Positions 9,218-54,108 of a stretch of 64,000 nt of DNA are shown piece after piece. The position numbers were made by a program, and so were the translations under genes. How positions within the stretch are numbered: position 1 is the stretch's first letter; every line of letters starts with the position of its first letter. Source of the DNA: Saprospiraceae bacterium. Its GTDB lineage: Bacteria; Bacteroidota; Bacteroidia; Chitinophagales; Saprospiraceae. The DNA is taken from positions 62,001-126,000 of the forward strand of contig CATQHI010000013.1 of NCBI GenBank assembly GCA_958295895.1. Direction: 5' to 3'. The notes below the pieces were generated by a model. That model made no database searches, was not told the DNA's origin, and was given only the letters and a program-made list of their open reading frames with translations.

Positions 9218-9838
9218 TTAGTCCGTTGTTCCGGCCAGGGCCGCCAGGAGGGCGCGGAAGGACTCCGGCTCGCCGTAGAGGGCGTCCTGGTAGGTGGTGG
9301 CGCGCAGGCGCAGGTTCCAGGGCACGTCATCGCGTAGTTCCAACTCTACGGTAATGTTACCGAACTTCTGGTCCAGGCCACCACGCTCCAGCGGGGCGGT
9401 CTTACGCTGGTGGCGGGTGCGGGGCTTAAGGTAGTGCCGTTCCTGGGTCTCGACCCAGTCGCGGCGGCTGAACACCCGGCGGTCGCTGATCTGGGTGCGG
9501 TAGTTGAGGGCCAGCACCCGCTCCTTGAGGTAGTGGAAGAAGTGGTTGATCTCGTCGCGGCGGTACTGCAGATCGCTGAAGTGCACGACGAAGCCCTTGC
9601 TACTGGCCGTATCCAGGAAGCTTACGGAGTGATCGTTCTGCCGTCCGGCCAGGAACTGGGCGTACTGCTCGGTGATCCAGTCAAAGAGCCGCTGCCGGGC
9701 CGCGGTGCGCTTCCACCGCTCGTAGTCGGCCAGCTCCTCGGCGTCGCGCTCGATCATCTCGTGCACGGCCGGGGCCTGGGGGGTGCTCTGCTCGGCCGCA
9801 TCGAAGAGTGCCGTGATCTTATCCCAGAAACTAGCCAT
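9218..9838 (-). CDS. Conserved hypothetical protein
   Basis: 206 residues, intact, without signal peptide or membrane segment. N-terminus MASFWDKITALFDAAEQ, then a mostly helical charged chain with FFHYLKERVLALNYRTQISD and a C-terminal beta-rich part (FGNITVELELRDDVPWNLRL). It overlaps by eight bases the end of the upstream membrane protein gene, so the two are likely co-transcribed. I do not recognise the family. Confidence 0.6.
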   Translation of the reverse strand: MASFWDKITALFDAAEQSTPQAPAVHEMIERDAEELADYERWKRTAARQRLFDWITEQYAQFLAGRQNDHSVSFLDTASSKGFVVHFSDLQYRRDEINHFFHYLKERVLALNYRTQISDRRVFSRRDWVETQERHYLKPRTRHQRKTAPLERGGLDQKFGNITVELELRDDVPWNLRLRATTYQDALYGEPESFRALLAALAGTTD

Positions 9839-10349
9839 AGGGGGTGCGGTTGTAGCGGGTGACGGTACCGCGGTGGCGCTGTTCGCGCTCCTCGGTGTAA
9901 CCGAATTCGGCGTGGGGCAGCAGCCGGTTGAGTGTCTTGGTGACTAGTAGCAGCTGGTCCGGCCGCAGACTGAAATCATGGGCCTCGCCGCGGTCGTCCA
10001 CTAGGTAAAGCGTCGCGCTACGCATCAGGTTGAGGCCGAAGGGCATCCGCTCGGTGACCATGCCGTATACCCACACGATGCGTTCGGGGTGCTCGCGCAG
10101 CTCTTCGCGCCAGGCCGCCGCCGGTTGCTCGCCCAGCAGCCGCACCAGCCAGTATACGCCCAGCGTAGCGGCCAGGGCCCCCAGGAAGGGAAAGACTGCC
10201 GAGTAGCGCAGCGTGAACAGGCAGGTGGCCAGTCCGATTACTATCAGGGCCACGGCCGTGAGTTGCTTAGCCCGGTGCTCGCGCTCCATACTTTTCCAGA
10301 GGGGCACCAGCCCCGGGTGGCGCAGGATACGATCGTTCGACGGCGGCAT
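9831..10349 (-). CDS. Hypothetical two-helix membrane protein
   Basis: ATG 10349 (MPPSNDRILRHPGLVPLW) is chosen over an upstream ATG at 10424 because the extra 25 residues look non-coding. Two adjacent membrane helices (ALIVIGLATCLFTLRYSAVF and LGALAATLGVYWLVRLL) are followed by a soluble domain of about 100 residues (RIVWVYGMVTERMPFGLNLM and further). The gene is coupled to the following hypothetical gene by an eight-base overlap. Family not recognised. Confidence 0.55.
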   Translation of the reverse strand: MPPSNDRILRHPGLVPLWKSMEREHRAKQLTAVALIVIGLATCLFTLRYSAVFPFLGALAATLGVYWLVRLLGEQPAAAWREELREHPERIVWVYGMVTERMPFGLNLMRSATLYLVDDRGEAHDFSLRPDQLLLVTKTLNRLLPHAEFGYTEEREQRHRGTVTRYNRTPYG

Positions 10350-10451
10350 ACCTGGTATAGGTCCAAAGCCGCGATCTGGTTTATCCCCTACCCCCCTTTT
10401 TGTGTCGCCCGGGCAAACATGCACTTGCCCGACTACGCTTAGGTACTACGT

Positions 10452-12632
10452 ATGCCCGCCGATAATAAAATTCAATCCTACGCCCACGTCGTCGTGCTGG
10501 ATGCCGCTTCCCTGCGCATACGGGCCCTGAGCGATAACGTACAGCAAATCACGGGCGGGGACGCAGGTGCACTACTGGGAGAACCGGCTACCAGTCTGTT
10601 CTCTCAGTCACTGCTCGACGAGCTACCCATCAACCGGGCACGTCGCGTTCCCCTTCCCCAGCGCATTGGTAGCGACGGGCCGATAGACTGGGGGCAGCGC
10701 CAGCTCATCCCCTTTTTTTACGCTGAAACCATTGTACTGGAGATCGAGCCCTACCTCCAGAACGAGCTCGGTAGCCTCGACCGGGAGGTAGCCCTCAACG
10801 ACATCACCGAGGACCTGCTGGAGGCCGTCGACCTCGATGAACTGCTCGACCTGGTGTGCCGCAAGCTGGCCGGCTACCTTAGATTCAACCGCATCATCAC
10901 CTACCAATTCGAGGACGGCGGTACCGGGCTGGTGCGCAACGAATATACCGACGGCAGACTGCCCTCCATGCTGGGGCTGCGGTACCGCCCCTTCGACTTT
11001 TCGGAGGAGGGCTACCGGCTGCACGAGCGGGAAACGGTACTCAACTTCAGCATCTCGGCCATCCCCTTCGTCTCCGTGCGCGGCGATCTGGACGGCGGCG
11101 AGGAGGCCATCAACTACCACCTGGGCTGCCGCACTCCCTCCCCCAGCTTCGAGCGCTTCATGGTGGAATCGAAGTTCAAGACCCTGCTCAGTATCGCCAT
11201 CGTGGTCGACGGCAACCCCTGGGGTATGCTTTTCGGTCACACGATCCCGGAGACCAAACTCGACTACCAGTTGCGCACCTTTGCCCACCTCATCGGTACG
11301 CTCACTGGACAGAACATCGCCTACCGGCTGCTGGAGGAGCTCAGGCAGCGGCTACTGACCTCCGACGTGGTGCGCTCCCGCCTGCGCGAGCGCATCGCCG
11401 GTGCTCCGAGTATGTCGGAGGGGCTACTGGGCGAAGACCCCTCCCTGCTCGACTACCTGCCCGATACCTCCGGGGCGGCCGTCCACATCGAAGACCAGCT
11501 CAGTACCCTGGGTAGTACGCCGTCCGAAGACCACATCCTCGGGATCGTATCCTGGGCACGGACCACCATGGATACCCAGCAGGATTACCTGGCCCTCACT
11601 AATCTCGCAGAGCGCTACCCTGGTGTGGATTTACACGGATTGGCCGCCGGCATTCTTTTCCTGCCGCTCAACGCCAGTCGCAGTGAGTGGGTGATCTGGT
11701 TTCGCCCCGAACGGGTCGAGGAGATCCTCTACGGCAGTTCCGCCGCCGAGCACCCCGCCGGGGGGGCAGCCCGCTACGAACCGGTCAGGGAGTCGCGCCG
11801 CGGCTACGCCACACCCTGGACCGCCGCCCAGCTCCGCGCCGCCACTGAGCTACAGACCTTCGTGCGCGACGTGGTCATGGAACGCTACACCCACCTGCGC
11901 CGCGTCAACGAGCAGCTCAAGACGGCCTACGCCGAGATGGAGGACTTCAGTTACATGGTCAGTCACGACCTGCGGGCGCCGCTGCGTGGCATCGATGGGT
12001 TCGCTGAAATCTTACTCGAGGACTACGGCACCGGTATCGGGGAGGGGGGTAAGGAGCTCATCCATACCATCCAGTACAATGCCGCGCGGATGAACCAGTT
12101 CATCGCCGATATATTGGAGCTGAGCCGCGTGGGCCGCGCCAAGCTCATCGTCAACGAGCTCGACGTGCCCCGGCTGGTGGAGGAAGCCGTGAAGGAGGTC
12201 AATCAGCAGATGGGGCTCAACGCCACGGTACACATCGACCGCCCCCTACCGACGATCCGGGGAGATCGGGAGCAACTAGCCGTAGTGTTCCGCCAACTTA
12301 TCTCCAACGCCATCAAGTACAGCGCCCTGCGGGCCGACCCCCAGATCGACGTAGGCTTCCGGCCCCACCCCCACCGTAGGCAGCAGGGCGAGTTTTACGT
12401 CTCCGATAACGGCATCGGCATTGCCCCCCAGCACCAGCAGCGCGTCTTCGGGATGTTCAACCGCCTGGTAACCCAGGAGGAGTACGCCGGCAACGGGGTA
12501 GGGCTGGCCATCGTGCGCCGCATCGTGAAGCGGCACCACGGGGAGGTACGCATCGAGAGCAGTCCCGGCCGGGGTACCACGATGCTTTTTTATACCGATC
12601 TTCCGGCCCCAACGGTACACCAAACAAACTAA
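10452..12632 (+). CDS. Phytochrome-like sensor histidine kinase, degenerate chromophore pocket
   Basis: 726 residues: PAS-like N-terminus (about 1-110), GAF (about 130-290), PHY (about 310-455), HisKA with phospho-acceptor His505 in YMVSHDLRAPLRGIDGFAEI, and HATPase_c with N, G1 (DNGIGIAP) and G2 (GNGVGLAIV) boxes. The overall plan and the PHY motif WFRPE mark it as a phytochrome relative of the kinase encoded downstream at 13226. However, it starts exactly where the CDxEP cysteine segment should have ended. The pocket His is Phe (SPSFERF instead of SPxHxEY), and PxSDIP is replaced by RPFDFS. Biliverdin attachment therefore looks unlikely. It is followed by a response regulator gene after 66 bases. 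Confidence 0.85.
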   Translation: MPADNKIQSYAHVVVLDAASLRIRALSDNVQQITGGDAGALLGEPATSLFSQSLLDELPINRARRVPLPQRIGSDGPIDWGQRQLIPFFYAETIVLEIEPYLQNELGSLDREVALNDITEDLLEAVDLDELLDLVCRKLAGYLRFNRIITYQFEDGGTGLVRNEYTDGRLPSMLGLRYRPFDFSEEGYRLHERETVLNFSISAIPFVSVRGDLDGGEEAINYHLGCRTPSPSFERFMVESKFKTLLSIAIVVDGNPWGMLFGHTIPETKLDYQLRTFAHLIGTLTGQNIAYRLLEELRQRLLTSDVVRSRLRERIAGAPSMSEGLLGEDPSLLDYLPDTSGAAVHIEDQLSTLGSTPSEDHILGIVSWARTTMDTQQDYLALTNLAERYPGVDLHGLAAGILFLPLNASRSEWVIWFRPERVEEILYGSSAAEHPAGGAARYEPVRESRRGYATPWTAAQLRAATELQTFVRDVVMERYTHLRRVNEQLKTAYAEMEDFSYMVSHDLRAPLRGIDGFAEILLEDYGTGIGEGGKELIHTIQYNAARMNQFIADILELSRVGRAKLIVNELDVPRLVEEAVKEVNQQMGLNATVHIDRPLPTIRGDREQLAVVFRQLISNAIKYSALRADPQIDVGFRPHPHRRQQGEFYVSDNGIGIAPQHQQRVFGMFNRLVTQEEYAGNGVGLAIVRRIVKRHHGEVRIESSPGRGTTMLFYTDLPAPTVHQTN

Positions 12633-12698
12633 CCGATTTTCCACTTCTATGGAGTAGCGTTAGCTGGCCGTTATCACATTCGTTCCCCCGTCACTCTC

Positions 12699-13133
12699 AT
12701 GTACAACAATCAAATCCTTCTCGCCGAAGACGATACGACCGACGCCGATTTTTTCAAGCGCGCCCTCAATCGTCTCGACGCGCCCCCCGACCTTGTCTGG
12801 TGCCGTACCGGTACCGAGGCCTACGAAGGGCTCCAGCGGAGCAGTCACGCCGATACCGCCTCCCTACCCCGCTTAGCTATTCTAGACATCAAGATGCCCG
12901 GCATGAACGGCCTGGAGCTGCTGGAAAAAATCAAGACGGACGACCGGCTGAAAAATATGCCCGTCATCATCATGTCGAGTAGCGACGAGCCGCAGGATAT
13001 CGCCCGTGCCTACGAAAGTGGCGCCAATGGCTACCTGGTAAAGCCTAATCGCTTTCAGGACCTTCGGGAGCTGGTAGGCTCCATCAACTACTTCTGGATC
13101 AAAACCAACCGGCTGCGCCCCCTACCGAGCTAG
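12699..13133 (+). CDS. Single-domain response regulator (Rcp1-like)
   Basis: 144 residues consisting only of a receiver domain. Acidic pair Asp11/Asp12, phosphoacceptor Asp63 (LAILDIKMPGM), switch Ser/Thr in IIMSSSD and Lys115 (YLVKPN) are all present. There is no output domain. Such stand-alone receivers accompany phytochrome kinases in cyanobacteria (Rcp1) and Bacteroidota, passing phosphate to an unknown target. The position right after the degenerate phytochrome kinase makes that kinase the likely partner. Confidence 0.88.
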   Translation: MYNNQILLAEDDTTDADFFKRALNRLDAPPDLVWCRTGTEAYEGLQRSSHADTASLPRLAILDIKMPGMNGLELLEKIKTDDRLKNMPVIIMSSSDEPQDIARAYESGANGYLVKPNRFQDLRELVGSINYFWIKTNRLRPLPS

Positions 13134-13225
13134 CCCACCGCTTTCTTTGGCCTACTTATACAACAAGGTGTTTTGTTTTGCATTAACCTCTAAGCGCGGC
13201 ACGGCAGCGTAGTATAACCCAGCTT

Positions 13226-15538
13226 ATGTCTTTAGCTTCTGATCCGGTCGCGGAGTCCATCCGGGAAGTATACCCTTACCAGGTAGACCTAGAGAACTGT
13301 GACGTGGAGCCCCTGCGCCACATCCAGGTGGTACAGGCCCACGCCTGCCTACTGGCCGTAGAGATCGATTCCCTCACCGTACGCTACGTCAGCGAGAACA
13401 CGGATAGCTTCCTCGGCAGGTCGTGGGAGGAGGTGATCGATACCCACCTGAGCACGGTATTTAAGCCCGAGGTCTTAGGACAAATTCCATTAGGCCTGAG
13501 CCGCTCCGAAGGCTTTGATACCATCAACCCCATTTTGTCCATCCTCGAGGTCGATGGACAGTCCCTACTGCGCAACGTCATCATCCACCGCTCCGGCAAG
13601 CTGCTGATTCTGGAGGTAGAGGCCACCGAGCGCGATACGCGTACTACCGGCTACCAGCAACTCCTGGCCCGCTCCATCTACCGCATCCAGAACACCACCG
13701 ATCCGGTCAAGCTGTTCCCCGAGACGGCCATGATCATCAAGCAGGTGTCGGGCTACGACCGCGTGATGGTCTATCAGTTCGATAAGGACTACAACGGGGA
13801 GGTCATTGCCGAGACCCGCAACGAGGAGTTGGAACCCTATGAGGGGTTGCGCTATCCCCACACCGACATTCCCAAGCAGGCCCGGGAGCTCTACCTGACC
13901 AATCGCGTACGCCTGATCAGCGGTACGTCCGAAAAACCGGCCCGCATCCGCCGCAGTCGGGAAGTGCCGCAGGGCGAGCCCCTCGACCTCACCCATGCGA
14001 CCAGTCGGGGCGTATCTCCGGTGCATCTGGAGTACCTCGGTTATATGGGCGTGGACAATTCGCTTAGCGTAGCCATCGTCTTGCAGGATAAACTCTGGGG
14101 GCTCTTCGCCCTCCACCACTATTCGCCGCGTACCATCGACTACGAGGTGCGCAACGTGCTGCTATTCATCGGTCAGATCTTCAGCGGTCACCTGGCGCTA
14201 CAGGCCGCCAACCGCTACCGCGAGCAGACCCTGACGCGCAACCTGGCCCGCCTGGCCATTGGCGAGCAAATCACTAAGACGCGCGACATCTTTGACGGAC
14301 TCACCTCCGGGAGCTACTCCATTATGAGTATGTTCCCGAATACTAACGGAGCGGCCATCTCCTTCGAGGATCGGCTACAGTGCCACGGCCAATACCCCGC
14401 CTGCGAGCATCTTGAGGAGCTCGTTGCGTGGGTTAAAGATACCCAGGTTGCGGCCCAGGACCTCTACTACGAGAACGACTCTATTGGGACTCACTTTTCC
14501 CTCTTCGAGCAGTACTGCGATACGGCCGCCGGCTTCCTGCTGGTATTTCTCAACCCCGCCCAGACCGACTGGCTCTGCTGGTTTCGCCCCGGACTGGTGC
14601 AGCAGATCACCTGGGGCGGTAAGCCCGAGAAGAATCTCATCGTCACCAATGAGACCCGCCGTATGGGGCCCCGCAAGAGTTTCGCCCGCTACGTCGAGAC
14701 CGTCGAGGGCTGCGCCGCCCCCTGGTCCGACACTGAGATCGATGCCGCCCTGGCCCTGCGCATCACCGTTATCAACAGCCTCCTGCAACGCTACACTGAG
14801 GTCAAGGAGATCAATGAGCGGCTACAGAAAGCCTACGAGGATCTGGAAACCTTCAGTTACACCGTCTCCCACGACCTGCGGGCACCACTACGGGCCATTA
14901 GTGGGTACGCCGAGATCATGGAAGAGGACTACGGACAGGAACTCGATGATGAGGCCAGGGGGCTCCTACAGGGCATCCAGCGGGGTGTGGACCAGATGAA
15001 CAACTTCATCACCGACATTCTGGATCTGAGCCGGGTGGGGAGTAGCGGACTTCAACTCGAACGCACGGCGGTGGCTCCCCTGGTACGCGACGTCCTGCTG
15101 GAGCTCAACCTCATTTACCCCCGTTCCGTGGACATCGCCGTCATTCTCGATGAGAATATGCCTGCCGTGGTAGCCGATCCCCGCCTCCTTCGCCAGCTGT
15201 ACACCAACCTGCTATCCAATAGCCTCAAGTACGCTACCCGCGGTGCGAACGGTAAGCTGGCGATCCGGGTAGGGTCCTACCCTGATCCGAAATCAGGCTT
15301 CCAGGTCTATACGGTGAGCAATACCGGCCCGGCCATTCCCGAGGAGTACCGGCAGACGATCTTCCAGATGTTCTCCCGCATGTCCTCGACCAGTAGTACC
15401 GACGGCACGGGCGTAGGCCTAGCCATCGTGGAGCGCATCGTCGATCGCCACCTCGGTAAGGTGTGGGTGGACGAAGACCAGCTAGGCGTAACCTTCCATT
15501 TTTACCTCAATGCCGAGAACCTCCGTAATGATGGATAA
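13226..15538 (+). CDS. bphP: Bacteriophytochrome sensor histidine kinase
   Basis: 770 residues with canonical PAS-GAF-PHY-HisKA-HATPase_c order. The biliverdin-binding cysteine is Cys25 in NCDVEPL. The GAF pocket has YPHTDIP (Asp214, equivalent of the PASDIP Asp), SPVHLEYLGYMGV (His267) and a FALHHY histidine pair near 297. The PHY tongue has WFRPGLVQQITWGG and PRKSF. The kinase H-box is YTVSHDLRAPL (His549), with G boxes including GTGVGLAIVERI. Bacteriophytochromes are red/far-red photoreceptors using biliverdin from haem oxygenase, encoded here two genes downstream. The stop overlaps the start of the next response regulator, indicating translational coupling. Confidence 0.93.
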   Translation: MSLASDPVAESIREVYPYQVDLENCDVEPLRHIQVVQAHACLLAVEIDSLTVRYVSENTDSFLGRSWEEVIDTHLSTVFKPEVLGQIPLGLSRSEGFDTINPILSILEVDGQSLLRNVIIHRSGKLLILEVEATERDTRTTGYQQLLARSIYRIQNTTDPVKLFPETAMIIKQVSGYDRVMVYQFDKDYNGEVIAETRNEELEPYEGLRYPHTDIPKQARELYLTNRVRLISGTSEKPARIRRSREVPQGEPLDLTHATSRGVSPVHLEYLGYMGVDNSLSVAIVLQDKLWGLFALHHYSPRTIDYEVRNVLLFIGQIFSGHLALQAANRYREQTLTRNLARLAIGEQITKTRDIFDGLTSGSYSIMSMFPNTNGAAISFEDRLQCHGQYPACEHLEELVAWVKDTQVAAQDLYYENDSIGTHFSLFEQYCDTAAGFLLVFLNPAQTDWLCWFRPGLVQQITWGGKPEKNLIVTNETRRMGPRKSFARYVETVEGCAAPWSDTEIDAALALRITVINSLLQRYTEVKEINERLQKAYEDLETFSYTVSHDLRAPLRAISGYAEIMEEDYGQELDDEARGLLQGIQRGVDQMNNFITDILDLSRVGSSGLQLERTAVAPLVRDVLLELNLIYPRSVDIAVILDENMPAVVADPRLLRQLYTNLLSNSLKYATRGANGKLAIRVGSYPDPKSGFQVYTVSNTGPAIPEEYRQTIFQMFSRMSSTSSTDGTGVGLAIVERIVDRHLGKVWVDEDQLGVTFHFYLNAENLRNDG

Positions 15539-15974
15539 GGAAGTGAGCACCGAGGTAGCCCCCTATATTCTTTACGCGGAGGATAACCCCGCCGACTCCC
15601 ACTTCCTACTACGCGCCTTTGGCCGCGACCATCCAGACCAGGAGTTGATCCACCTGGAAAACGGACAACTGGTTAAGGAATACTTACTACGCATAGTAGC
15701 CGAGGGCGCCCCCCTCCCTACCCTAGTTGTGCTGGACATCAAAATGCCGGGCATGAGCGGTCTGGAAGTCCTCGAATTCATCCGCCACCACCCCCGCCTT
15801 TACCGCCTGCCCGTCATCCTACTCAGTGCCTCCGAGGAGGAGCGCGACCTCGACCGCGCCTACCACAGCCGCGTCAACGCCTACCTGGTCAAACCCGGCC
15901 GCTACCGGCAGCTCCGCGAACTGACCAAGACCATCCAGCTACTGTGGGTCCGCTACAATCGGGTAGCCCTATGA
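15528..15974 (+). CDS. Single-domain response regulator (Rcp1-like)
   Basis: 148 residues from ATG 15528 (a second ATG follows directly). It contains only a receiver domain: acidic pocket YAEDNPAD, phosphoacceptor Asp70 (VVLDIKMPGM), LLSASEEE and the conserved Lys in YLVKPGR. The start lies inside the end of the bacteriophytochrome gene (ATGATGGATAA), and its own TGA overlaps the haem oxygenase ATG. All three are therefore translated as a unit, and the phytochrome is the obvious phosphodonor. The C-terminal LLWVRYNRVAL parallels the first regulator's FWIKTNRL. Confidence 0.9.
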   Translation: MMDKEVSTEVAPYILYAEDNPADSHFLLRAFGRDHPDQELIHLENGQLVKEYLLRIVAEGAPLPTLVVLDIKMPGMSGLEVLEFIRHHPRLYRLPVILLSASEEERDLDRAYHSRVNAYLVKPGRYRQLRELTKTIQLLWVRYNRVAL

Positions 15975-16501
15975 GCAGCACCAGCCCCCTGCTCCGGGCC
16001 CTCCGCGACGGCACCCGGGCCGCGCACCAGCAACTGGAGGACGTCACGCTGGGCGATAAAATCATGGACGGCAGCCTCTCCCCCACCGAGTACCGCCACA
16101 TCCTGACCTGGCAGCGGGCCGTACACGAGATCCTGGAACCAGGTGTGGTAGGCTTTGCCCTGGGAGCGTACCGCTACCGCCCTCGCTTCGTAGCGGATAC
16201 CGCTGAGGACGTCCCCGCGCCGCCACCAGTCGATGCTATCGGTCGGGTGTACGTCCTGGAGGGGGCCAGCCTCGGCGGCAGCATGATCTACCGCAAACTG
16301 CAGACTAATCTTAGCCTGACGGACGAGGCCCCCTTTACCTTCTACCGCGACCAGGCGGATTGGGGGCTCGCACAGTGGCGCAACTTTGTGGCGGCCATCA
16401 GCGCACATCCCTTTACCGAAGCGGAGATTCGGACGGCGGTCAAAAGCGCCCGGGACACCTTCGCCACCTTCGCCCGGCAGTGGGCGGCCACGGCCGGCTA
16501 G
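15971..16501 (+). CDS. bphO: Biliverdin-producing haem oxygenase
   Basis: 176 residues. The proximal haem ligand is His19 in GTRAAHQQLED, and the distal-helix signature is GRVYVLEGASLGGSMIYRKL. These fit the bacterial BphO/HO family, which opens haem to biliverdin, CO and iron. The ATGA overlap with the preceding regulator and immediate linkage to a phytochrome indicate that the product is the chromophore. It is short compared with HmuO-type enzymes but normal for BphO. Confidence 0.88.
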   Translation: MSSTSPLLRALRDGTRAAHQQLEDVTLGDKIMDGSLSPTEYRHILTWQRAVHEILEPGVVGFALGAYRYRPRFVADTAEDVPAPPPVDAIGRVYVLEGASLGGSMIYRKLQTNLSLTDEAPFTFYRDQADWGLAQWRNFVAAISAHPFTEAEIRTAVKSARDTFATFARQWAATAG

Positions 16502-16514: not shown

Positions 16515-17423
16515 ATGCCCACCGCCGAACCCGACCGCGACGAGATCACGGCCTATTTCCGTAGCCTGCAGGACGACATCTGCGGCCAGCTCTCCGCAGC
16601 CGATGATGACATCCCCTTCACCGAGGATGAGTGGGAACGCCCCGGCGGCGGCGGCGGCCGGGCCCGGGTATTACTGGGCCACCACATCGAAAAGGGCGGC
16701 GTCAACTTCAGTGCCGTACACGGGGAGCTACCCCCGGCTGCGGCGGCAAGTTTACACACCGAGGCCGGCGAGACTAGTTTCTATGCTACTGGCGTGAGCA
16801 TTGTGCTGCACCCCCGCAACGTGCACGTGCCCATTATCCACATGAACGTGCGCTACTTCGAGCTCGACGGGGGGCGCTACTGGTTTGGTGGGGGCATCGA
16901 TCTGACGCCGCACTATGTCGTGGCCGAGGATGCTCAGTTCTTCCACGAGCAACTAAGGCAGACCTGTGACCGCTTCGACACCAGCTACTACCCCCGCTTC
17001 AAGAAGTGGGCCGACGATTACTTCTACATCCCCCACCGCCAGGAGACCCGGGGCGTGGGCGGCATTTTCTTCGACCGGCTACAGCCCGCGGCGGAGCAAA
17101 AGACCAAGCGGGAGCTCTTCGACTTTACGGCCGCCGTGGGGGAGACGTTTGTGCCCGCCTACCTACCCTTGCACCTGCGTTCGCGGCAAAAGGAGGTCAC
17201 GCCGGAGCAGCACCGCTGGCAGGAACTCCGCCGGGGCCGGTACGTGGAGTTCAACCTGGTGTGGGACCGCGGCACCAAGTTCGGCCTGACCACCAACGGC
17301 CGCACCGAAAGTATACTGATGAGCCTGCCCCCCCTGGCGGGCTGGACCTACGACTACCAGGCCGCCCCGGGTAGCCCGGAGGCCGAAACCCTGGCTCTAC
17401 TACGCAAGGGGGTCAACTGGTGA
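16515..17423 (+). CDS. hemF: Oxygen-dependent coproporphyrinogen III oxidase
   Basis: 302 residues, the normal HemF length. Typical motifs are GVNFSAVHG, NVRYFELDGGRYWFGGGIDL, KKWADDYFYIPHR, RGVGGIFFDRL and the C-terminal RGTKFGLTTNGRTESILMSL. It converts coproporphyrinogen III to protoporphyrinogen IX with O2 in the cytoplasm. ATG 16515 is chosen because homology begins at MPTAEPDRDE; the frame is open further upstream inside the haem oxygenase gene. Placed directly after bphO, it may supply haem for chromophore synthesis. Confidence 0.93.
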   Translation: MPTAEPDRDEITAYFRSLQDDICGQLSAADDDIPFTEDEWERPGGGGGRARVLLGHHIEKGGVNFSAVHGELPPAAAASLHTEAGETSFYATGVSIVLHPRNVHVPIIHMNVRYFELDGGRYWFGGGIDLTPHYVVAEDAQFFHEQLRQTCDRFDTSYYPRFKKWADDYFYIPHRQETRGVGGIFFDRLQPAAEQKTKRELFDFTAAVGETFVPAYLPLHLRSRQKEVTPEQHRWQELRRGRYVEFNLVWDRGTKFGLTTNGRTESILMSLPPLAGWTYDYQAAPGSPEAETLALLRKGVNW

Positions 17424-41805: not shown

Positions 41806-42812
41806 CGGGGCACCAGCCTCTGTGGGGGAGTGATCTTTTGTATAAACGATTCCATGGAGTGGCTCTCCCATTCGTAACGCTGGTTTAACTGGTGGTACTG
41901 GTTTAGTATTCGGACGAGACCGGCCAAATTCCGGGCGGGGTCGGTCGCTAAATTGTGGGGATGCCACCACAGGTGATAGTGCCGCTGGTTGCGCGCTGCC
42001 TGCTGCATCTCCCGTAGAATACGGCGGATTTTGAATTCCTGCCCGCCGTAGCCGTCGATGCGCTTCACGTAAGGACGCAGGAACCGACTAGCCGGCACCT
42101 CGTACAACTGATCCACTGAGTTGATGCCGGCGAAGGAGGTGCTGCTGCTGCTGAGCGGCAGGTAGTTATCGACGAGTCGTACCGTCCGTTGGGTAAGGGA
42201 AGTATCCCTGCCCGACCGTGTACGCCAAAACCAACTCCCGGGATTAGTCCTGTACGTAGTAAACCCCTGACCGGAAAGGGCGGCCAGGTAATCACTTCGG
42301 TACTGGTTGCGGGGGAAGACCAGGCTGTGCATCTCGGTAAAGCCCCGCCGCCGGGCTAGGCCCTGAGCTGCCGCCAAATCATCGACAAAACTACCGAGTT
42401 GTTGCCCCTCCTCCAGACAGTAGTAGTGCCCAAAGGTGTGGCTACCGATGGACTGCCCCGCCGTGGCGGCGATGCGGTCGATCAGGCTCGGGGCGTAATG
42501 GTAGGGATCTTCTTCCTCATTAGTCCCCAGGCTGGGCAGCAGCCGGTAAGGATTCAGACGGGGATCCGTGTAGGCGGGCCGGCTGGGGGGCAAATGAGCC
42601 ATCAACTCCTCCCGATCGCGGGCAAAGAGCATCCCCACCGTAGCCCAGGTGGCGCGGATGCCGTATTCGGTAAAGAGGTCTAGCGTGGTGGGGATGAGGA
42701 CACGCGCACGGTCGAAATAAGCGCGGCTTCGATCGGTAAGCTCCGTATGGTCGAACACCCCCCAGTGCAGCTCGAAGTCGAGCGAGATGATGAAGGCACC
42801 GGGCTTACTCAC
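41802..42812 (-). CDS. Polysaccharide deacetylase family protein (NodB-like)
   Basis: 336 residues. Start ISLDFELHWGVFDH supplies the catalytic Asp and metal Asp; SIGSHTFGHYYC gives the metal-binding His pair; HYHLWWHPHNLATDP provides the C-terminal His. It has no signal peptide, so action on a cytoplasmic lipid-linked intermediate is possible. It overlaps the Wzy-like gene by eight bases. Confidence 0.85.
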   Translation of the reverse strand: MSKPGAFIISLDFELHWGVFDHTELTDRSRAYFDRARVLIPTTLDLFTEYGIRATWATVGMLFARDREELMAHLPPSRPAYTDPRLNPYRLLPSLGTNEEEDPYHYAPSLIDRIAATAGQSIGSHTFGHYYCLEEGQQLGSFVDDLAAAQGLARRRGFTEMHSLVFPRNQYRSDYLAALSGQGFTTYRTNPGSWFWRTRSGRDTSLTQRTVRLVDNYLPLSSSSTSFAGINSVDQLYEVPASRFLRPYVKRIDGYGGQEFKIRRILREMQQAARNQRHYHLWWHPHNLATDPARNLAGLVRILNQYHQLNQRYEWESHSMESFIQKITPPQRLVPR

Positions 42813-43965
42813 CGATGACGATTTTACGTTCCGTGCGGTAGGCGTAGTCGGCGTAGGCTAGGAGTACAAGTACGAATAGGTAAGTGACCTGCGACTTTTG
42901 GCGGATGGCAATGCCCATGTTGGAGCTGATCTGGGCCAGGGCAATACTGACTACAAAGAAGGTGGTCAGAGCCATCTTTACCATCCAGGGGGCCTGCACG
43001 ATGAACTTAAGGAAGCGAGGACTGAAGCAACGTAAGAACAGAATTAGGTAGATCAGATTTTCGACCGACACGATCAGTCCCAGCGCGTTGGGCGAATCGA
43101 CAAACAGCGGTCGGAACAGGAAGGTGAACAGCTTCATGGGCTGGGAGTAGTTGTCGATGTCTACGGCGGAATTAGCCTTTTTAAGGTCGGAGGTGCGCTT
43201 TTCGGACCACTCCGTGATGGCATCGGCGTCCGAGGCGTCTACCCCTACGTAGGCGAATGTCTGCTGGAACAGGGGCCCCAGGGCAGCCAGGGCCACCGCT
43301 ACGATGACTACCTTTTGCCAGTTTTTGATGCCCTTATTGCTAAATAGGGCAGCGAGTACAGCAGCACCACAGATGGCCGCCATAATGTGGGCCCGTACAT
43401 GAAGCACGATAATGGCCCCAATGGCCACCCAGATCAAGCGACGGTCAAACCGATTGAGGCCGTAGAAAAGCATCCCCATACCAGCAAGAATTACTGACCC
43501 CTTACCCAGTGAAGCACTGTAGAAATGCGCGATGGGCAAGAAAAAAAGCAGTAGGATAGCATCGACCCCGAAGAGCTTATGACGGAAGGTAGTACGTTCG
43601 GCTACGAGAAGATAGAGAAAAAAGAAACCTACGAAGCCGAAAAAGCCAAACATAAACATGGACGCCACGTAACTGAACCCTAACCCATTGATGAAGGGAT
43701 AGGCCAAAAACTCGACGAAGGGTGTACCGAAGGCGTAGAAATCCCACCACGTCTCGCCCCGAAAATAGTTGAACGTGTTACGGTAGTAGGCCTTGGAGTC
43801 AGAAGCGTTGGAGAGGGCCCATACGTAATAGACTAGGGAGAAAAATGTATGGTAGGCAAACAGACCCCAGATGGCCCCCTTGCCGTGGCGAATTTGGTCG
43901 GCATGCCCGTTGATGAGCAAACCGGCCGCAAGAACGATCAGGAAGAGCGATACGACGAGGGTCAT
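42805..43965 (-). CDS. Polytopic membrane protein, candidate Wzy/EpsG-like polymerase
   Basis: 386 residues and about ten helices with a large periplasmic loop near residues 230-275 (VDASDADAITEWSEKRTSD and following). Such topology within a Wzx-containing locus suggests the repeat-unit polymerase. Sequence conservation of Wzy is poor, so the call rests on topology and context. It ends overlapping the deacetylase start and begins on the last base of the GNAT gene. Confidence 0.6.
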   Translation of the reverse strand: MTLVVSLFLIVLAAGLLINGHADQIRHGKGAIWGLFAYHTFFSLVYYVWALSNASDSKAYYRNTFNYFRGETWWDFYAFGTPFVEFLAYPFINGLGFSYVASMFMFGFFGFVGFFFLYLLVAERTTFRHKLFGVDAILLLFFLPIAHFYSASLGKGSVILAGMGMLFYGLNRFDRRLIWVAIGAIIVLHVRAHIMAAICGAAVLAALFSNKGIKNWQKVVIVAVALAALGPLFQQTFAYVGVDASDADAITEWSEKRTSDLKKANSAVDIDNYSQPMKLFTFLFRPLFVDSPNALGLIVSVENLIYLILFLRCFSPRFLKFIVQAPWMVKMALTTFFVVSIALAQISSNMGIAIRQKSQVTYLFVLVLLAYADYAYRTERKIVIGE

Positions 43966-44897
43966 CAGAAAAGTTCTAGATCACCAAGCGTATAGTGCCA
44001 TGACGGCAATGCCACAGGATCAGCGAGGTTAAGACTACGAAACGTCAGGTTGAGGCCCAGCGGGAGCGCGGGGGTGAAATACCAGGGTAGCCAGGCAGCA
44101 GGTGCCGCAGTGACCACAGCGGGTTTAACGCGACGTAGTAGCCGACTGAGTGCCGCCCGCGCTAGCCCCTCGCTACCCGGTCTTACCAGGTCATGTACGA
44201 TGCGTAGCTCCTGGCCCATGCGCTGTTCTCGTAGGTAGTATACGATACAAAACTCAGTGGGTAAGGTAAGGGCAGCGTAATTCCGCACCGGGCAGTCAGC
44301 ATACCGCCACCGTAGGATAGCCGGAGTGACTGGTGTGCGCCACGTCCCGACCTCAGTTGTCGGCTTGGGTAGGCTTGCAAAATCATCCTTACTTGCCAGC
44401 CTGATTTGTAGTGGTGGTCTGTAGGGTCGCGAGAGTAAGAGGTGCCCGAGCATGTTGATCGGTGAATAGGGGGCTAGGCACAGGGGCACCTTTCCGAGCT
44501 CACGCCAGCCCATCTTGAGGTAGCCAGGCCTGCTCTGCTCGTTCGGAGTGTTGAAAATGAAGTCGTCACCCGCCGCCTCGCACTGCTCGATCAGCCGTAG
44601 GGTCAACTTCTTAAAAACACCCTGGCCACGATAGTCCGGGTGCGTAGCGGTGTCTACCGCGCGGAGCGCCCGGTAGGTGCGGCTCCCTTCCACCCACTGC
44701 CACCGCATAAATGCACGCACTCCAACTACTCGGTCCCGGTCAACGGCTAAAAGTACCGGAGAGGGCCCGAAGGGGTTATGCACGTGTTTCCACCGCCAGA
44801 ACTCGATGCTCTTTTGTGTACTCTCGTTGCCCAAGCTTTGTTGGAGTAGATCGATGATCTGTGCCTCATCCGCTACCGTCGCCTCCCGAAACATCAT
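43965..44897 (-). CDS. GNAT family N-acetyltransferase
   Basis: 310 residues. The N-terminal half is a GNAT domain (MMFREATVADEAQIIDLLQQ, VVGVRAFMRWQWV, and acetyl-CoA motif THPDYRGQGVFKKLTLRLI). The C-terminal half resembles a second, degenerate acetyltransferase fold. Probably acetylates an amino sugar of the polymer. It overlaps the upstream GT4 stop by four bases (ATGATG start). Confidence 0.8.
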   Translation of the reverse strand: MMFREATVADEAQIIDLLQQSLGNESTQKSIEFWRWKHVHNPFGPSPVLLAVDRDRVVGVRAFMRWQWVEGSRTYRALRAVDTATHPDYRGQGVFKKLTLRLIEQCEAAGDDFIFNTPNEQSRPGYLKMGWRELGKVPLCLAPYSPINMLGHLLLSRPYRPPLQIRLASKDDFASLPKPTTEVGTWRTPVTPAILRWRYADCPVRNYAALTLPTEFCIVYYLREQRMGQELRIVHDLVRPGSEGLARAALSRLLRRVKPAVVTAAPAAWLPWYFTPALPLGLNLTFRSLNLADPVALPSWHYTLGDLELF

Positions 44898-46006
44898 GGC
44901 AACACCACTTGATCATAGATGAGTTCTAGCTCACGCGTCATACGCTCAATGCTGAAATTACGTTGCACCCGCGTCCGCGCCTTGTGGCCTACCCGCCCAC
45001 GTAAAGCAGCATCGGTGATTAAAGTTTGTAGCGGCTGTTCGAGTGATTCCCAATCGCTTACCTCCGCCAAGAAGCCCGTCTCCTGATCGGTAACCGCCTC
45101 GCCGATACCGCCGGCCCGCGTTGCTACCACGGGTAGTTCCATACTCATAGCCTCCAACATCGCCACCGGTAGGCCCTCAAACTCGCTCGTCATCAAATAG
45201 ATATCCATCGCCGCAAGCCAAGGACGTACTTCGCTTATCCTTCCCGTAAAGGTAATCACATTCTGCATTCCAGCTTCCAGGACCTGAGCCCTAAGTCGGT
45301 CCTCCTCCGGCCCATCACCTACCATGACGAAGTGTAGATCCGGGTGACGCCGGTAAAGCCGTTCGGCTAACGTGAGCCAATGGTGTAGACGCTTCTGCGT
45401 ACGGAACACGCAAACGGTACCGATGATGAGCTTATCGGCGGGTAATTGCAATTGGGCGCGGACGCGGGTGCGGTCAAATTGATTAAGTGCGAAACGCTCG
45501 GTATTCACACCATTCTGCAGGCTTTGCACACGTTTGGGTCCGATTTGTAGATGGTGGTGAATACTACCCAGTACGTCATCGGAGCAGGCAATGATTCTGC
45601 GGTTCCAGGCTAAGGTAGCTAGGTTAAGCCTCCGGGTGAGGGTATGGTAGCGTTCCTGCTTATTGTGCTCGGTATACACAACTGGCACACCAGTGAGCTT
45701 ACTCACTATACGCCCCGTAACGCCGGCAATGGGCAAATGACAGTGGATAACGTCGATACGGTGCTTACGCACGTATCTCATAAGGGCGAATGACTGGGCC
45801 AAGATTCCCACCGTGGAAGTGGCTGCGAATAGATCGACTTCGGCCCCCAGTTGCCGCAGGTCTTCGGCCACCTGCCCTTTGTGCGGTAAAAAATACGCGT
45901 ACCGAAAGTGATAGCGGACACGATTGTGCACCCGGAGGGTCTCAGGCAGCAGCATTTCGGCTCCCCCCCGCCCCAACGATTTGATAAGGTGTAAAACGCG
46001 GATCAC
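44894..46006 (-). CDS. Glycosyltransferase family 4
   Basis: 370 residues. The start LHLIKSLGRGGAEMLLPETL is the classical GT4 acceptor loop. Other motifs: VPVVYTEHNKQERY, IIGTVCVFRTQKRLHHWLTL, and SEFEGLPVAMLEAMSMELP with the E-x7-E pair. Retaining transferase acting on the cytoplasmic face; donor unknown. Four-base overlaps on both sides place it in one transcriptional unit with the flanking GT4 and GNAT genes. Confidence 0.9.
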   Translation of the reverse strand: MIRVLHLIKSLGRGGAEMLLPETLRVHNRVRYHFRYAYFLPHKGQVAEDLRQLGAEVDLFAATSTVGILAQSFALMRYVRKHRIDVIHCHLPIAGVTGRIVSKLTGVPVVYTEHNKQERYHTLTRRLNLATLAWNRRIIACSDDVLGSIHHHLQIGPKRVQSLQNGVNTERFALNQFDRTRVRAQLQLPADKLIIGTVCVFRTQKRLHHWLTLAERLYRRHPDLHFVMVGDGPEEDRLRAQVLEAGMQNVITFTGRISEVRPWLAAMDIYLMTSEFEGLPVAMLEAMSMELPVVATRAGGIGEAVTDQETGFLAEVSDWESLEQPLQTLITDAALRGRVGHKARTRVQRNFSIERMTRELELIYDQVVLP

Positions 46007-47118
46007 TGGCGGCCGATTGATTCGTAGAAGGTGTGGAAATCATGCGCGATGACTTCAATTCTTTTCTGCTCGTGCACTAACAGAAGGGCTTGCTCAGCAA
46101 TGCGCTGCCGCTGCTCAGGGTGGCTTAGCAGCTCGTGCACCTGACTGATAAAGGCAGTCTCGTCGGAGGGCGGCAGTACGTATCCGGTCACATTCTGGTG
46201 CAAAATTTCCGCGATGCCGCCAACGTCCGCGGCCACTACCGGTACGTTACGAGCCATGGCTTCCAGGATCACACCTGGCATCCCCTCTACTAGGCTAGGC
46301 ATCACCATGAGGTCCGCGTGGAAGAGTAGCTCTCCTACATCACTCCGGTAACCGGCCAGGCGGACACAATCATCAATACCGAGTGTCCGAACCGACTCTT
46401 CAATCTGCGGGCGCAGCCGCCCGTCACCAATCAGCAACAGTTTGCCAACACTACCTCGCTGCCTCAGACCAGCAAATATGCGGAGCAGGCCAAGATGATT
46501 TTTCTCGGGCACGAAACTTCCCACGTTGATCAGGAGTGGACCCGGCGTGCGGAAACCGAATTCCGCCAGGACATCCTCTCGCTCACGGCTTGCTTGCATA
46601 CCTACAGGAGTACCGATGGTGATCGTACGGGTCGGTGGTGCAAGGGTAGGAAAAAGACCCAGTAAATCCTGACGGCAGTTTTCGCTCACCGATACGACCG
46701 AATCAACGCGGTCCAGCAAAAAGCCAAGGTAACGGCGCTGCGGGGCTGAGCGTACGAAGGAGCTTATATTATTTGCATTACGGAACACCAGGTGACCGGG
46801 CCAACCGTAAAGCAAACGGGACAAAACGGCGTACTTGAGGGTGTCTCCGGCATTAGCCTGCACGATATCCGGCCGGAATTCGCGAATCCGATGTGCTAGT
46901 TTGCGCCATCCTCCGATATCGAAAAAACGGAATTTTTCATTGAGCGATAAGTTCTCCAGCTGGGGGCCGTTTAGCCGTAATTTCAAGCCTGAGCGTTGGT
47001 CGAACAGCGCCAGGAAAAGTACCTCGTCACCGCCCTGGTGGTGTACGGCTCCAATTTGGGAGGCGAAAGTTTCCGCACCGCGCAGTTGGGGCCGTTGGAT
47101 GAGGTGAATGATTCTCAC
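46003..47118 (-). CDS. Glycosyltransferase family 4
   Basis: 371 residues: IHLIQRPQLRGAETFASQIG, VVSVSENCRQDLLGLFPTLA, PLLINVGSFVPEKNHLGLLR and VEGMPGVILEAMARNVPVVA. Clearly a GT-B GT4 enzyme and a paralogue of the two flanking genes, probably adding a different sugar of the same repeat unit. It starts two bases before the stop of the preceding GT4 gene and overlaps the following one. Confidence 0.9.
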   Translation of the reverse strand: MRIIHLIQRPQLRGAETFASQIGAVHHQGGDEVLFLALFDQRSGLKLRLNGPQLENLSLNEKFRFFDIGGWRKLAHRIREFRPDIVQANAGDTLKYAVLSRLLYGWPGHLVFRNANNISSFVRSAPQRRYLGFLLDRVDSVVSVSENCRQDLLGLFPTLAPPTRTITIGTPVGMQASREREDVLAEFGFRTPGPLLINVGSFVPEKNHLGLLRIFAGLRQRGSVGKLLLIGDGRLRPQIEESVRTLGIDDCVRLAGYRSDVGELLFHADLMVMPSLVEGMPGVILEAMARNVPVVAADVGGIAEILHQNVTGYVLPPSDETAFISQVHELLSHPEQRQRIAEQALLLVHEQKRIEVIAHDFHTFYESIGRQ

Positions 47119-47120
47119 TG

Positions 47121-48233
47121 CTACTTGTTTTGAATCACACGTTGGTAGAGCGACAGCGTAGCGCGCGCTACCTGCCGGATATCATACCGCTCGGTAGCGA
47201 CTGAATGGGCCTGGTGGATCATATCGGCATAGTCCGGTAGATCCTTCAGTTGACTGAGCCGGTCCAGTAAATCCTTTTCGTCCGTGACCCGAAAAAAAAG
47301 AGCGTTACCACCGGTGACCTCCCGGAAAACAGGGATGTCCGAGGCGACGATAGGTAGCTTAGCTAGCATAGCTTCGATGAGAGCTCCCCCCAACCCCTCG
47401 TAGTGGGAGGGCATTATAAAATAATCGGCTTGGGGATACAGTGTAGCGACGTCGGCGACCTCGCCCAAAAATTGAAACCGTTCGCTATTAGGTAACTGCA
47501 TAGCGTAGTTGCGTATCCCTTCTGCGTCCACTCCATCGCCCGCGATGAGGTAGGTGACACGTCGATCGCTGGGCAAATGGGCGATGGCGTAGAGTGATTC
47601 CCGGTATCCTTTACGCCAGATGAGCCGCGATGTAGTAAGAAAGGTCAGCCCATCACTGGCGGGCTCGTCACCAGCCCGGGCGGTGTGACTGTTGATGGAT
47701 CTACCGCGGTAGATGACCGTTACTTTCCCGTCGGGTACACCCAGATCCCGGATATTTTGCTGTTTGGTAGAGTGAGTAATGGCGGTGAAGTGATCTACCA
47801 TACCTTTAGTTAAAAAGTCAATACCCTGAATACCCCGAAGCTTCAGCTTGCCGATTACCGAAGATTTTAGTCCAAAGTGGTACCGAGAATAGCTGTCGTT
47901 AACGAACGAATTGACGAGGGGTATTTTACTGCCCCAAAGAGCAAGGCGGGCAATAATCTCGGAGCGAAACAGTGCGGCGTGGACGACGTCCGGCGCACTG
48001 GCCTGTATTAAGCGCCGCAAGTACCTTCTACCCCTGAAGAAGCCGTATTTCTCGTTGAGGTTATGCACAATCACCTTAGCTCCAGTGGCAGTAAATTTTT
48101 CCTCTAACCCACCGGCACCGTACAGCGTGGCAACGGTGATATCATGGCTGGGCACCAGCTCGCGCACGATTGCCAACGTGCTGGTCTCGGCACCCCCTAC
48201 GGCCAGCGTATCGAGCAACAATAAAATCTTCAC
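47121..48233 (-). CDS. Glycosyltransferase family 4
   Basis: 370 residues: MKILLLLDTLAVGGAETSTL, FLTTSRLIWRKGYRESLYAI and YEGLGGALIEAMLAKLPIVA. It is the first of three consecutive GT4 genes, so divergence after tandem duplication is plausible. It is separated from the sulfotransferase gene by 50 bases without a recognisable promoter. Confidence 0.9.
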   Translation of the reverse strand: MKILLLLDTLAVGGAETSTLAIVRELVPSHDITVATLYGAGGLEEKFTATGAKVIVHNLNEKYGFFRGRRYLRRLIQASAPDVVHAALFRSEIIARLALWGSKIPLVNSFVNDSYSRYHFGLKSSVIGKLKLRGIQGIDFLTKGMVDHFTAITHSTKQQNIRDLGVPDGKVTVIYRGRSINSHTARAGDEPASDGLTFLTTSRLIWRKGYRESLYAIAHLPSDRRVTYLIAGDGVDAEGIRNYAMQLPNSERFQFLGEVADVATLYPQADYFIMPSHYEGLGGALIEAMLAKLPIVASDIPVFREVTGGNALFFRVTDEKDLLDRLSQLKDLPDYADMIHQAHSVATERYDIRQVARATLSLYQRVIQNK

Positions 48234-48283
48234 TAAAGTGTGAGCTTAAGCAGGTCGCTATGGTGAATCACAGTGCGATGGGA

Positions 48284-49132
48284 TTATAGGTAGCTGAAAG
48301 CCGCCAGGCCCTCTCCGGCCTCCGCCACAATAGTGGCGCGAACGTCTTCGGATAGAGCCCGGTTCTGCGTAGCATTAACATTTGGCCGGATGATCTCCTT
48401 GATCGTAGTTTGGTCAAACCAGTAGTGCTCGTCTTCCTTTCCGTAGCCTACCGAATGAGTGCCGTCGTGGGCCAGCACCTTCTTAACCTTGAGGCGGATG
48501 TTGGTCAGGGGCACGTCAGACAGTTCGCAAAATTGGTGAAGCTCTTTGGCTACCGTAAAGGGATCTTCAAGCACGTCCTCAAAGCGGATAATCTTGTGCC
48601 TCACTCCACTCTTATCGAGAGCCAGAATATCGTGGCAGAACCTGTTGTAAAGGCGAGCAGCTTGCTGGGGGTCCGTGCCCCGCCTGATCCAGCCTTCACA
48701 CACCGAAAATCCATCCCGAATAAGACTAACGAAAATCGTTTCGTGGGAGATCCGTTGGATAAGGTCATTGTCATCTAGGCTCCAGAATTTGGGGGAGCAA
48801 ACTCCCTTAAAACACACTACACTCGACTCGAGTTGAGCGCGTGTGTAAAGTTCTCCCGGTCGTGTGCCGATTACGTTATTCCTGCCGGAGGGATTTGAAA
48901 CATTGAGTTTGAACTTGCTCTCAAAGTAGTATTCTCCTAGGGTAGCAAGCGTAGCCGAATCAGCCATTTTTCTGAATGCCTGGTCGATGAATCGTAACCG
49001 CCCGTAGCCGCCCGTCATCTGATTGACCTCGTGGGTGGGTGCGGCCACCTCCGGGTGTGATTGAATGAGATTCCAGACGATGTTTGTGCCGCCCCGTGCG
49101 AGGCCGTTAAGGACTATTGATTTGTTGATCAT
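48284..49132 (-). CDS. Sulfotransferase family protein
   Basis: 282 residues. The 5'-PAPS binding loop is near the N-terminus (VLNGLARGGTNIVWNLIQSH), and the 3'-phosphate region IFVSLIRDGFSVCEGWIRRG contains the RDG motif. IIRFEDVLEDPFTVAKEL is also typical. It would transfer sulfate from PAPS to a sugar hydroxyl. No PAPS synthesis genes are in the window. Sulfated polysaccharides are common in marine bacteria, which would suit a Lewinella-like host. Confidence 0.8.
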   Translation of the reverse strand: MINKSIVLNGLARGGTNIVWNLIQSHPEVAAPTHEVNQMTGGYGRLRFIDQAFRKMADSATLATLGEYYFESKFKLNVSNPSGRNNVIGTRPGELYTRAQLESSVVCFKGVCSPKFWSLDDNDLIQRISHETIFVSLIRDGFSVCEGWIRRGTDPQQAARLYNRFCHDILALDKSGVRHKIIRFEDVLEDPFTVAKELHQFCELSDVPLTNIRLKVKKVLAHDGTHSVGYGKEDEHYWFDQTTIKEIIRPNVNATQNRALSEDVRATIVAEAGEGLAAFSYL

Positions 49133-49195
49133 GGTACTGTATTGTTCAGCGCTCGGCGCTGGGTCCGCTACGGTAGCTTTAGTAACCAGCGGAGT

Positions 49196-50110: not shown

Positions 50111-50190
50111 CGTATTGAGACTTGTAACTCCTGTATCTATCCCGCAAATATACTGGTGTAGTGCCTTATGTACGCGCCTTACGGGCTCAA

Positions 50191-51108: not shown

Positions 51109-51255
51109 TGTACTGGGGGATTAACACGTTTATAACTGGTCTAGCCTACAAGCAGCTCCAAAAAGGGAACTATAACACTAAGTCCTAACGTAGGTAAGAG
51201 GGGTAAATTGCTTTTCCTATAAGTTGTCTTTTGCTGAGGAGATTGGTGAGTGTAG

Positions 51256-52176: not shown

Positions 52177-52240
52177 GTCTAGCTCAGAAACTGCCAAATG
52201 ATTAGACTTATTAGCTCGCTGGGTAACCCGGAGCGGCTGA

Positions 52241-53731: not shown

Positions 53732-54108
53732 TCTATTCAGTTGGAAATAAAAAACGTGTTGATTATCTATATTGAATCAGTTCTTAAACGTCTCCGTCGT
53801 CAAGTCACGGTATGCTGGCGAAAGTAATTTGTTTTGTTCGCTCAGTTGTGCCAGGCTATTTTTATTGTATTCCCGTACACACTTGATCAAGCACGGACTC
53901 CGCGACGCGGGCCTTGGCAAAGTATTTGTTTATATTAGCAGGCTAAGTGAGAAAATTTACACGACCATTAATTTAAAATGAATGATTCATATAAGTATTG
54001 TATAACTAAGTACCCATACTAAACTTACTTGTCAGGATCAGTAGTCAGATCGCTAGCGTTTTGGTGGTTCGCGCACTCAAAGTTAGCAAGCAAGAATCGA
54101 TGGACTAC
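53732..54108. other. AT-rich intergenic region, no gene recognised
   Basis: 377 bases between the flippase and the pyruvyl transferase, strongly AT-rich. Short open frames exist on the + strand (for example 53772-53981), but they resemble no family. One TAACTTTG (-7-like, minus strand, about 54083-54076) lacks a -33 partner. It may carry a promoter or a decayed gene remnant; nothing firm can be called. Confidence 0.5.

Follow-up and report, generated by a model that had tools for sequence, protein, structure and literature searches.

Tandem phytochrome-family histidine kinases in a Neolewinella clade: a predicted biliverdin-binding kinase beside a predicted blind paralogue

Introduction

The vast majority of the bacteriophytochromes analysed are homodimers, with heterodimers described in individual organisms, according to the available part of one report (PMC12329595). 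Here we examine a locus where two phytochrome-family histidine kinases, K1 and K2, lie in tandem within a 64,000-nucleotide stretch of DNA (hereafter the window; contig CATQHI010000013.1, positions 62,001 to 126,000, assembly GCA_958295895.1) from a Saprospiraceae bacterium. K1 is followed by a stand-alone receiver, RR1, and K2 by a second receiver, RR2, and then a haem oxygenase gene; a third paralogue, K3, lies behind uvrA at a separate locus. With its photosensory module, HisKA-type kinase, biliverdin cysteine and receiver, K2 resembles the DrBphP/DrRR and Agp1/AtRR1 systems as they are presented in the accessible sections of PMC8292422. It also matches the RtBphP1 operon, in which the phytochrome has a haem oxygenase as well as a CheY-like regulator for neighbours (excerpted text of PMC6848086). 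Unlike the DrBphP, Agp1 and RtBphP1 systems, K2 carries an Asn in its G1 box, and its tandem neighbours are a paralogue predicted to be blind and the receiver that goes with it.

Both the tandem arrangement and the loss of light sensing have counterparts in Rhodopseudomonas palustris. RpBphP2 and RpBphP3 form a phytochrome tandem whose members are both said to bind biliverdin, whereas here one tandem member, K1, has lost its pocket. RpBphP4 is reportedly a chromophore-less bacteriophytochrome turned redox sensor, that is, a phytochrome kinase in which light sensing was lost, as predicted for K1 and K3; the present case differs in having two such paralogues, one beside the sighted K2 and one behind uvrA, in nine genomes of one clade. 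Heterodimers of RpBphP2 and RpBphP3 have been reported in vitro (cited in the available text of PMC12329595).

Mixed dimers are also on record elsewhere. Engineered DrBphP heterodimers restore light-controlled output through mixed phytochrome-kinase dimers, although these were made by swapping interface salt bridges within one protein, while K1 and K2 are natural paralogues (PMC12329595, same portion). In Aspergillus fumigatus the photoactive FphA and the photoinactive FphB, both phytochrome kinases, heterodimerise; this pair is fungal, however, FphB is a hybrid kinase, and the part of PMC12607886 at hand mentions neither a tandem locus nor separate receivers nor a neighbouring haem oxygenase. 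The paralogous kinases HrrS and ChrS of Corynebacterium glutamicum heterodimerise with one partner inactive and with cross-phosphorylation of the other's receiver, but that case arose through a frameshift in laboratory evolution and concerns haem-responsive kinases that are not phytochromes (PMC9491836, insofar as its text was available).

Phytochrome-haem oxygenase-receiver groups are known (accessible text of PMC6848086), and so, each by itself, are phytochrome tandems, mixed dimers and photoinactive phytochromes. Searches of the open-licence literature, which were not aimed at uvrA, showed no case that joins a sighted kinase of altered ATP site to a blind partner in tandem and to a second blind paralogue behind uvrA. 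Nor was any paper on a Lewinella or Neolewinella phytochrome found in that literature, and searching it by combinations of terms gave no matching paper on blind or chromophore-less phytochromes.

Results and discussion

A survey of 396 genomes drawn from the order gave a PHY match in 51 of them and exactly three matches in nine, all belonging to one genus. Besides the window genome, these are N. maritima, N. aquimaris, N. litorea, N. marina, N. xylanilytica, Lewinella sp. JB7, IMCC34183 and IMCC34191. The order K1, RR1, K2, haem oxygenase is constant in all nine and the flanking genes are the same, RR2 being present in seven. In the window the five genes span positions 10452 to 16501, and open reading frames and Pfam matches bear out the order, strand and outer limits given in a preliminary description of this DNA made from its letters alone; the stop/start overlaps reported there from the second kinase onward (K2 with RR2, RR2 with the haem oxygenase) are both real. 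Its view of a light-competent and a probably blind kinase as a distinct module is strengthened by the presence of K1-RR1-K2-haem oxygenase in nine of 21 genomes of the genus, and the complete five-gene order stands in seven of the nine carriers, so it is not absent from all relatives. Neither K3, the blind third paralogue located behind uvrA, nor the altered catalytic motifs reported below had a place in that account.

K2 (13226–15538, + strand) has PAS_2, GAF, PHY, HisKA and HATPase_c domains over the Pfam cut-off. Its complete chromophore pocket, as first proposed from the sequence, was corroborated by alignment: Cys25 falls at the position of the N-terminal Cys in all 20 single phytochromes used for comparison (taken from 20 of the 42 other genomes of the same order with a PHY match), and Asp214 and His267 align with Asp207 and His260 of DrBphP. 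When mapped on DrBphP, Cys25, Asp214, His267, Arg229, Tyr270, Ser279 and the PRxSF tongue were each found in all nine K2 proteins.

K1 (10452–12632, + strand; 726 amino acids) has PAS_2, PHY, HisKA and HATPase_c matches, the GAF domain being detected by Pfam in K2 only. The window K1 starts nine bases past an in-frame TAG, with no Cys-bearing extension, and has Phe at the chromophore His position. The loss of its pocket had been proposed outright; this stands for the Cys-bearing N-terminus, the His and most pocket residues, but Asp182 and the Arg254 equivalent are retained. Alignment A1 held eight of the nine K1 proteins (that of L055 was omitted, its start being unsure), and alignment A2 held nine K1, seven of nine K3, four of nine K2 and six of the 20 single phytochromes. 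Both the Cys at the aligned position and the chromophore His are absent from all 18 K1 and K3 proteins. More specifically, in all nine K1 the position of DrBphP His260 is occupied by Phe, Leu, Ala or Ile, the equivalents of Arg222 and Ser272 are lost, the Tyr263 position is Phe and the PRxSF tongue is missing; the Ser257 equivalent is lost in eight (the window K1 retains Ser) and the Ala288 position is Phe in seven. Equivalents of Asp207 and Arg254 are retained in all nine and that of His290 in seven. Among 94 aligned sensor rows from the 80 loci nearest K1, the chromophore His is lacking in the eight K1 rows, present in 81 others (eight K2 included) and gapped in five.

An AlphaFold model of K1 calculated with alignment A2 (mean pLDDT 85.3, pTM 0.60) gave phytochromes as the best PDB matches; the 50 rows listed from a Foldseek search were all phytochromes or phytochrome constructs, matched over whole photosensory modules. 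Based on the residue losses and the phytochrome-like model, we take K1 to be a phytochrome by fold and descent that is predicted not to bind bilin covalently. From these residues we infer that K2 binds biliverdin and that K1 is blind.

The active sites of the two tandem kinases also depart from the canonical pattern. In all nine K2 proteins the Asp of the G1 box (D-x-G-x-G) is replaced by Asn (Asn699 in the window) and the second Gly is retained in only two, whereas the H-box His (phospho-acceptor His549) and the N-box, F-box and G2-box residues conform; both N-box Asn residues and the Asp at H+1 are among those kept. The G1 Asp is present in all nine K1, all nine K3 and all 20 single phytochromes, and in each of 141 CA domains from 72 other loci, a comparison set gathered with a phytochrome-kinase profile and hence biased to similar domains. 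K1 has its phospho-acceptor at His505 and an intact G1 box Asp (Asp652), and its first N-box Asn is replaced by His in six genomes and by Gln in three (Gln615 in the window); at this position the set of 141 has Asn in 132, Gln in six, Glu in one and a gap in two. The position aligns with Asn637 of Agp1 and His648 of DrBphP, the latter having been discussed, together with the His at H+1, as a reason for undetectable kinase activity (available text of PMC8292422). All 27 paralogues have Asp at H+1, unlike DrBphP, and Ala at H+4. At H+4 Thr, Asn or Glu has been linked to phosphatase activity and the kinase Agp1 has Ala (PMC8292422, same sections); the 20 single phytochromes have Ala (nine), Glu (six), Thr (three) or Ser (two). 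Judged by alignment, the H+1/H+4 pattern of K1, K2 and K3 is that of the kinase Agp1 rather than that of the phosphatase DrBphP.

Since every K2 has the G1 Asn and every K1 has His or Gln in the N-box, neither tandem kinase is canonical alone; these residues are non-standard and not proof of dead enzymes. K3 alone of the three paralogues retains every catalytic residue examined. With the pocket found only in K2 and the full set of catalytic residues only in K3, the predicted pocket and the predicted fully canonical active site are in separate proteins. Overall, the changes in the active sites point to a possible division of light sensing and phosphate transfer among the paralogues.

K3 is a protein of 723 amino acids in the window genome, where it lies at locus L062 (L063–L070 in the other genomes), and in all nine genomes it has neither a Cys at the aligned position nor the chromophore His nor the PRxSF tongue. 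In every genome uvrA directly precedes it on the same strand (L062:4516–9625 in the window genome), the K3 open reading frame starting at most 60 bases from uvrA in eight genomes, with an overlap in one, and 212 bases away in the ninth. This pairing possibly links the phytochrome family to nucleotide excision repair and offers a concrete candidate for such coupling; DrBphP-dependent survival of mitomycin C in light is a related report (PMC8363230, as far as its accessible text goes).

A search of 21 genomes of the genus placed, among the matches listed, K1 in nine, K3 in nine and a single canonical phytochrome in five; seven had no full-length phytochrome among the matches listed, four of them having no PHY match in the survey either. 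Outside the genus no K1-like protein of comparable score was seen: in a contig scan identity was 45–71% in eight Lewinella/Neolewinella records and then 29% (among the best 80 of 547), and in 395 genomes drawn from the class the highest score beyond the genus was 438 bits, whereas K1 scored about 1200 and K3 630. The searches made brought up no further K1-RR1-K2-haem oxygenase locus beyond the nine carriers. Two PHY proteins occurred together in 10 of the 80 loci nearest K1, namely eight tandem loci and the Pedobacter loci L140 and L144. One PHY protein of L144 is cut by the locus end, and other shortened loci may hide further pairs.

When a tree was built on two flanking proteins, taken from the nine carriers and six of the other 12 genomes of the genus, the carriers formed one clade (100/100), within which N. 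aquimaris and JB7 group together as sister to the window species plus N. maritima (90/94). A tree of kinase halves (47 rows), which carries a long-branch warning, unites K1, K2 and K3 (97/93) and separates them from the 20 single phytochromes. The sensor tree makes K1 and K3 sisters (100/100) on a long branch but brings all three paralogues together only weakly (61/41), a grouping neither shown nor rejected. The simplest reading of these unrooted trees is a duplication within the clade followed by pocket loss in the ancestor of K1 and K3.

RR1 (12699–13133, + strand; 144 amino acids) and RR2 (15528–15974, + strand; 148 amino acids from the ATG at 15528) each contain a Response_reg domain and no further Pfam domain, in line with the earlier remark that both receivers lack output domains. 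The acceptor Asp and Lys motifs LDIKMPG and YLxKP are kept in all nine RR1 and all seven RR2, which we take to be akin to the Rcp-type stand-alone phytochrome receivers. The candidate starts of RR2 (ATG at 15510, 15528 or 15531) all precede the K2 stop (15536–15538), and its own stop overlaps the haem oxygenase start as ATGA (15971–15974); 66 bases separate K1 from RR1 and 92 separate RR1 from K2. The BphO-type haem oxygenase (15971–16501, + strand) has 176 amino acids and a Heme_oxygenase match (PF01126, 1e-15).

The preliminary description assigned each kinase its own receiver. Read as a rule of function, such strict pairing is not borne out, because RR2 is missing from two of the nine genomes, N. 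aquimaris and Lewinella sp. JB7, which retain K2. As these two group in the flanking-protein tree, a single loss of RR2 is simplest. Relocation of RR2 in N. aquimaris and JB7 was considered and rejected: the best matches there are RR1 (104.8 and 103.7 bits), the next being at or below 55 bits. With no other close relative of RR2 found in the genomes of these sister species, K2 would signal elsewhere, RR1 being the nearest candidate. As to other receivers of the order, a longer one of 177–189 amino acids with a C-terminal extension accompanies the phytochrome in eight of the 20 single-phytochrome loci (L034, L035, L036, L037, L038, L040, L041 and L045), beside or instead of a short receiver.

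Mean identities over the 36 genome pairs were, for PAS, GAF, PHY, DHp and CA respectively, 39, 40, 47, 73 and 58% in K1, 56, 73, 59, 77 and 58% in K2, and 41, 49, 49, 66 and 61% in K3. RR1 reached 80% (nine genomes), RR2 51% (seven) and the haem oxygenase 54% (nine), such that outside the DHp domains the strongest constraint falls on the K2 GAF domain and RR1. In the DHp domain K1 and K2 are on average 53% identical, against 49% for K1 and K3, whereas in PAS, GAF, PHY and CA K1 is nearer K3. The DHp likeness would fit a common partner kept by both kinases, whether each other or RR1. Gene conversion between the K1 and K2 DHp domains was discarded, within-genome identity (52.2%) not exceeding that between genomes (52.9%). 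Charge complementarity of the GAF dimer helix (acidic in nine of nine K1, basic in nine of nine K2) was also discarded as evidence, six of the seven single phytochromes scoring best to K2 being basic too.

We favour, with a confidence just short of even, a scheme in which K2 is the light receptor and acts together with the blind K1, most likely within a K1-K2 heterodimer, on a shared phosphate flow that runs for the most part to RR1. An ancestral bacteriophytochrome kinase would have been duplicated in one Neolewinella clade to give K2, K1 and K3; the predicted loss of bilin binding in K1 and K3 left their DHp and CA domains in place. The adjacent haem oxygenase would make the biliverdin that K2 binds for sensing red and far-red light. 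Red light would then change the shape of K2, and the signal would enter the phosphate flow shared with K1, mainly towards RR1; in the putative heterodimer K2 would supply the light-driven movement, and RR2 may be an optional second acceptor or sink. We infer both the joint action on RR1 and the heterodimer. K1 and K2 may meet as that putative dimer or only at RR1, and either cross-phosphorylation or heterodimerisation is plausible. Mixed dimers have natural precedents in the RpBphP2/RpBphP3 and FphA/FphB pairs introduced above.

Several observations weigh against this scheme. The CA domain of K2 is as conserved as that of K1 (58% each), with no visible decay. The DHp likeness of K1 and K2 holds in seven of the nine genomes only, the K1 domain being nearer K3 in the window genome (56 vs 51%) and in N. 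maritima (52 vs 51%), and the basic GAF dimer helix is, from the single phytochromes just mentioned, not special to K2. The G1 Asn itself recurs in a further HisKA kinase encoded by the window's own genome (L084, contig C6), and CusS-type kinases with a G1 Asn are functional. Lastly, the changed residue of K1 and that of K2 are both in the CA domain, which leaves neither tandem kinase with an unaltered CA domain that could simply make good the other's in a heterodimer. Rescue of a dead K2 by an intact K1 was set aside in that simple form: the first N-box Asn of K1 is replaced too, the K2 CA domain is as conserved as that of K1, and L084 shares the Asn. A partial, stop-containing near-copy of L084 is present on contig C27 (L088).

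The best-surviving alternative, possible though in our estimate distinctly less probable, is that two independent pathways share the locus, K2 and RR2 responding to light and K1 and RR1 to redox state or another ligand held in the old pocket, in the manner of RpBphP4. A receiver does lie directly after each kinase in seven of the nine loci, RR1 beside K1 is strongly conserved (80%), and the modified K1 pocket may bind something, its Asp207 and Arg254 equivalents being kept in nine of nine and its His290 equivalent in seven. Two species nevertheless keep K2 without RR2, and in seven of nine genomes the DHp domain of K1 has remained similar to that of K2; moreover, a new specific ligand site would predict conserved PAS and GAF domains, yet in K1 these are the least conserved (39 and 40%).

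K2 could instead be a light-controlled phosphatase or sink that drains phosphorylated RR1 made by K1 or K3, such that light opposes phosphorylation. The altered G1 box suggests a weaker autokinase, and DrBphP, in which no kinase activity is detectable, works as a light-activated phosphatase (PMC8292422, in its available part). We consider this unlikely, given that H+4 is Ala in all 27 K1, K2 and K3 proteins, as in the kinase Agp1, and that K2 keeps both N-box Asn residues and the H+1 Asp.

Far less probable still is non-covalent bilin binding by K1 as a spectrally shifted second photoreceptor: the phytochrome fold of the model (mean pLDDT 85.3) and the kept Asp207 and Arg254 (nine of nine) and His290 (seven of nine) equivalents would allow it, but all nine K1 are without the Cys, the His260, Arg222 and Ser272 equivalents and the PRxSF tongue, and seven place Phe at the Ala288 position. 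That K1 is a functionless, decaying duplicate, as its PAS, GAF and PHY identities (39, 40 and 47%, the lowest of the three paralogues) might suggest, is hardly credible and already contradicted by conservation across nine genomes, with an open frame, the phospho-acceptor His and a linked RR1 (80%) in nine of nine and a DHp domain at 73%.

A bolder reading, which we regard as rather doubtful, is that of a naturally split phytochrome, where a red-light signal has to pass from one paralogue to another before it can reach an ordinary active site. K2 would then be the single eye for two blind kinase partners, K1 at the tandem and K3 from the uvrA pair, the latter tied to DNA repair. Nine genomes with a sighted kinase and two predicted blind paralogues make signal exchange between natural phytochrome-kinase subunits directly testable, and K1, K2 and K3 could supply natural components for red-light switches built as heterodimers, such as have been engineered from one protein (PMC12329595).

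Other features of the window

HemF, a coproporphyrinogen III oxidase (16515–17423, + strand), begins 13 bases past the haem oxygenase. It flanks the tandem in all nine loci, the gap being about 340–380 bases in the eight relatives (for L060 as judged by match position). The close coupling of genes for haem synthesis and haem breakdown in the window looks species-specific. On the left, two small divergent genes (9218–9838 and 9831–10424, − strand) that match no Pfam family are kept in all nine loci. Further along, at about 42805–58782 on the − strand, lies a cell-surface polysaccharide cluster with five glycosyltransferases among the 10 genes scanned; judging by family names, it presumably also encodes a flippase-like polysaccharide-synthesis protein and a P-loop protein resembling Wzc-type kinases.

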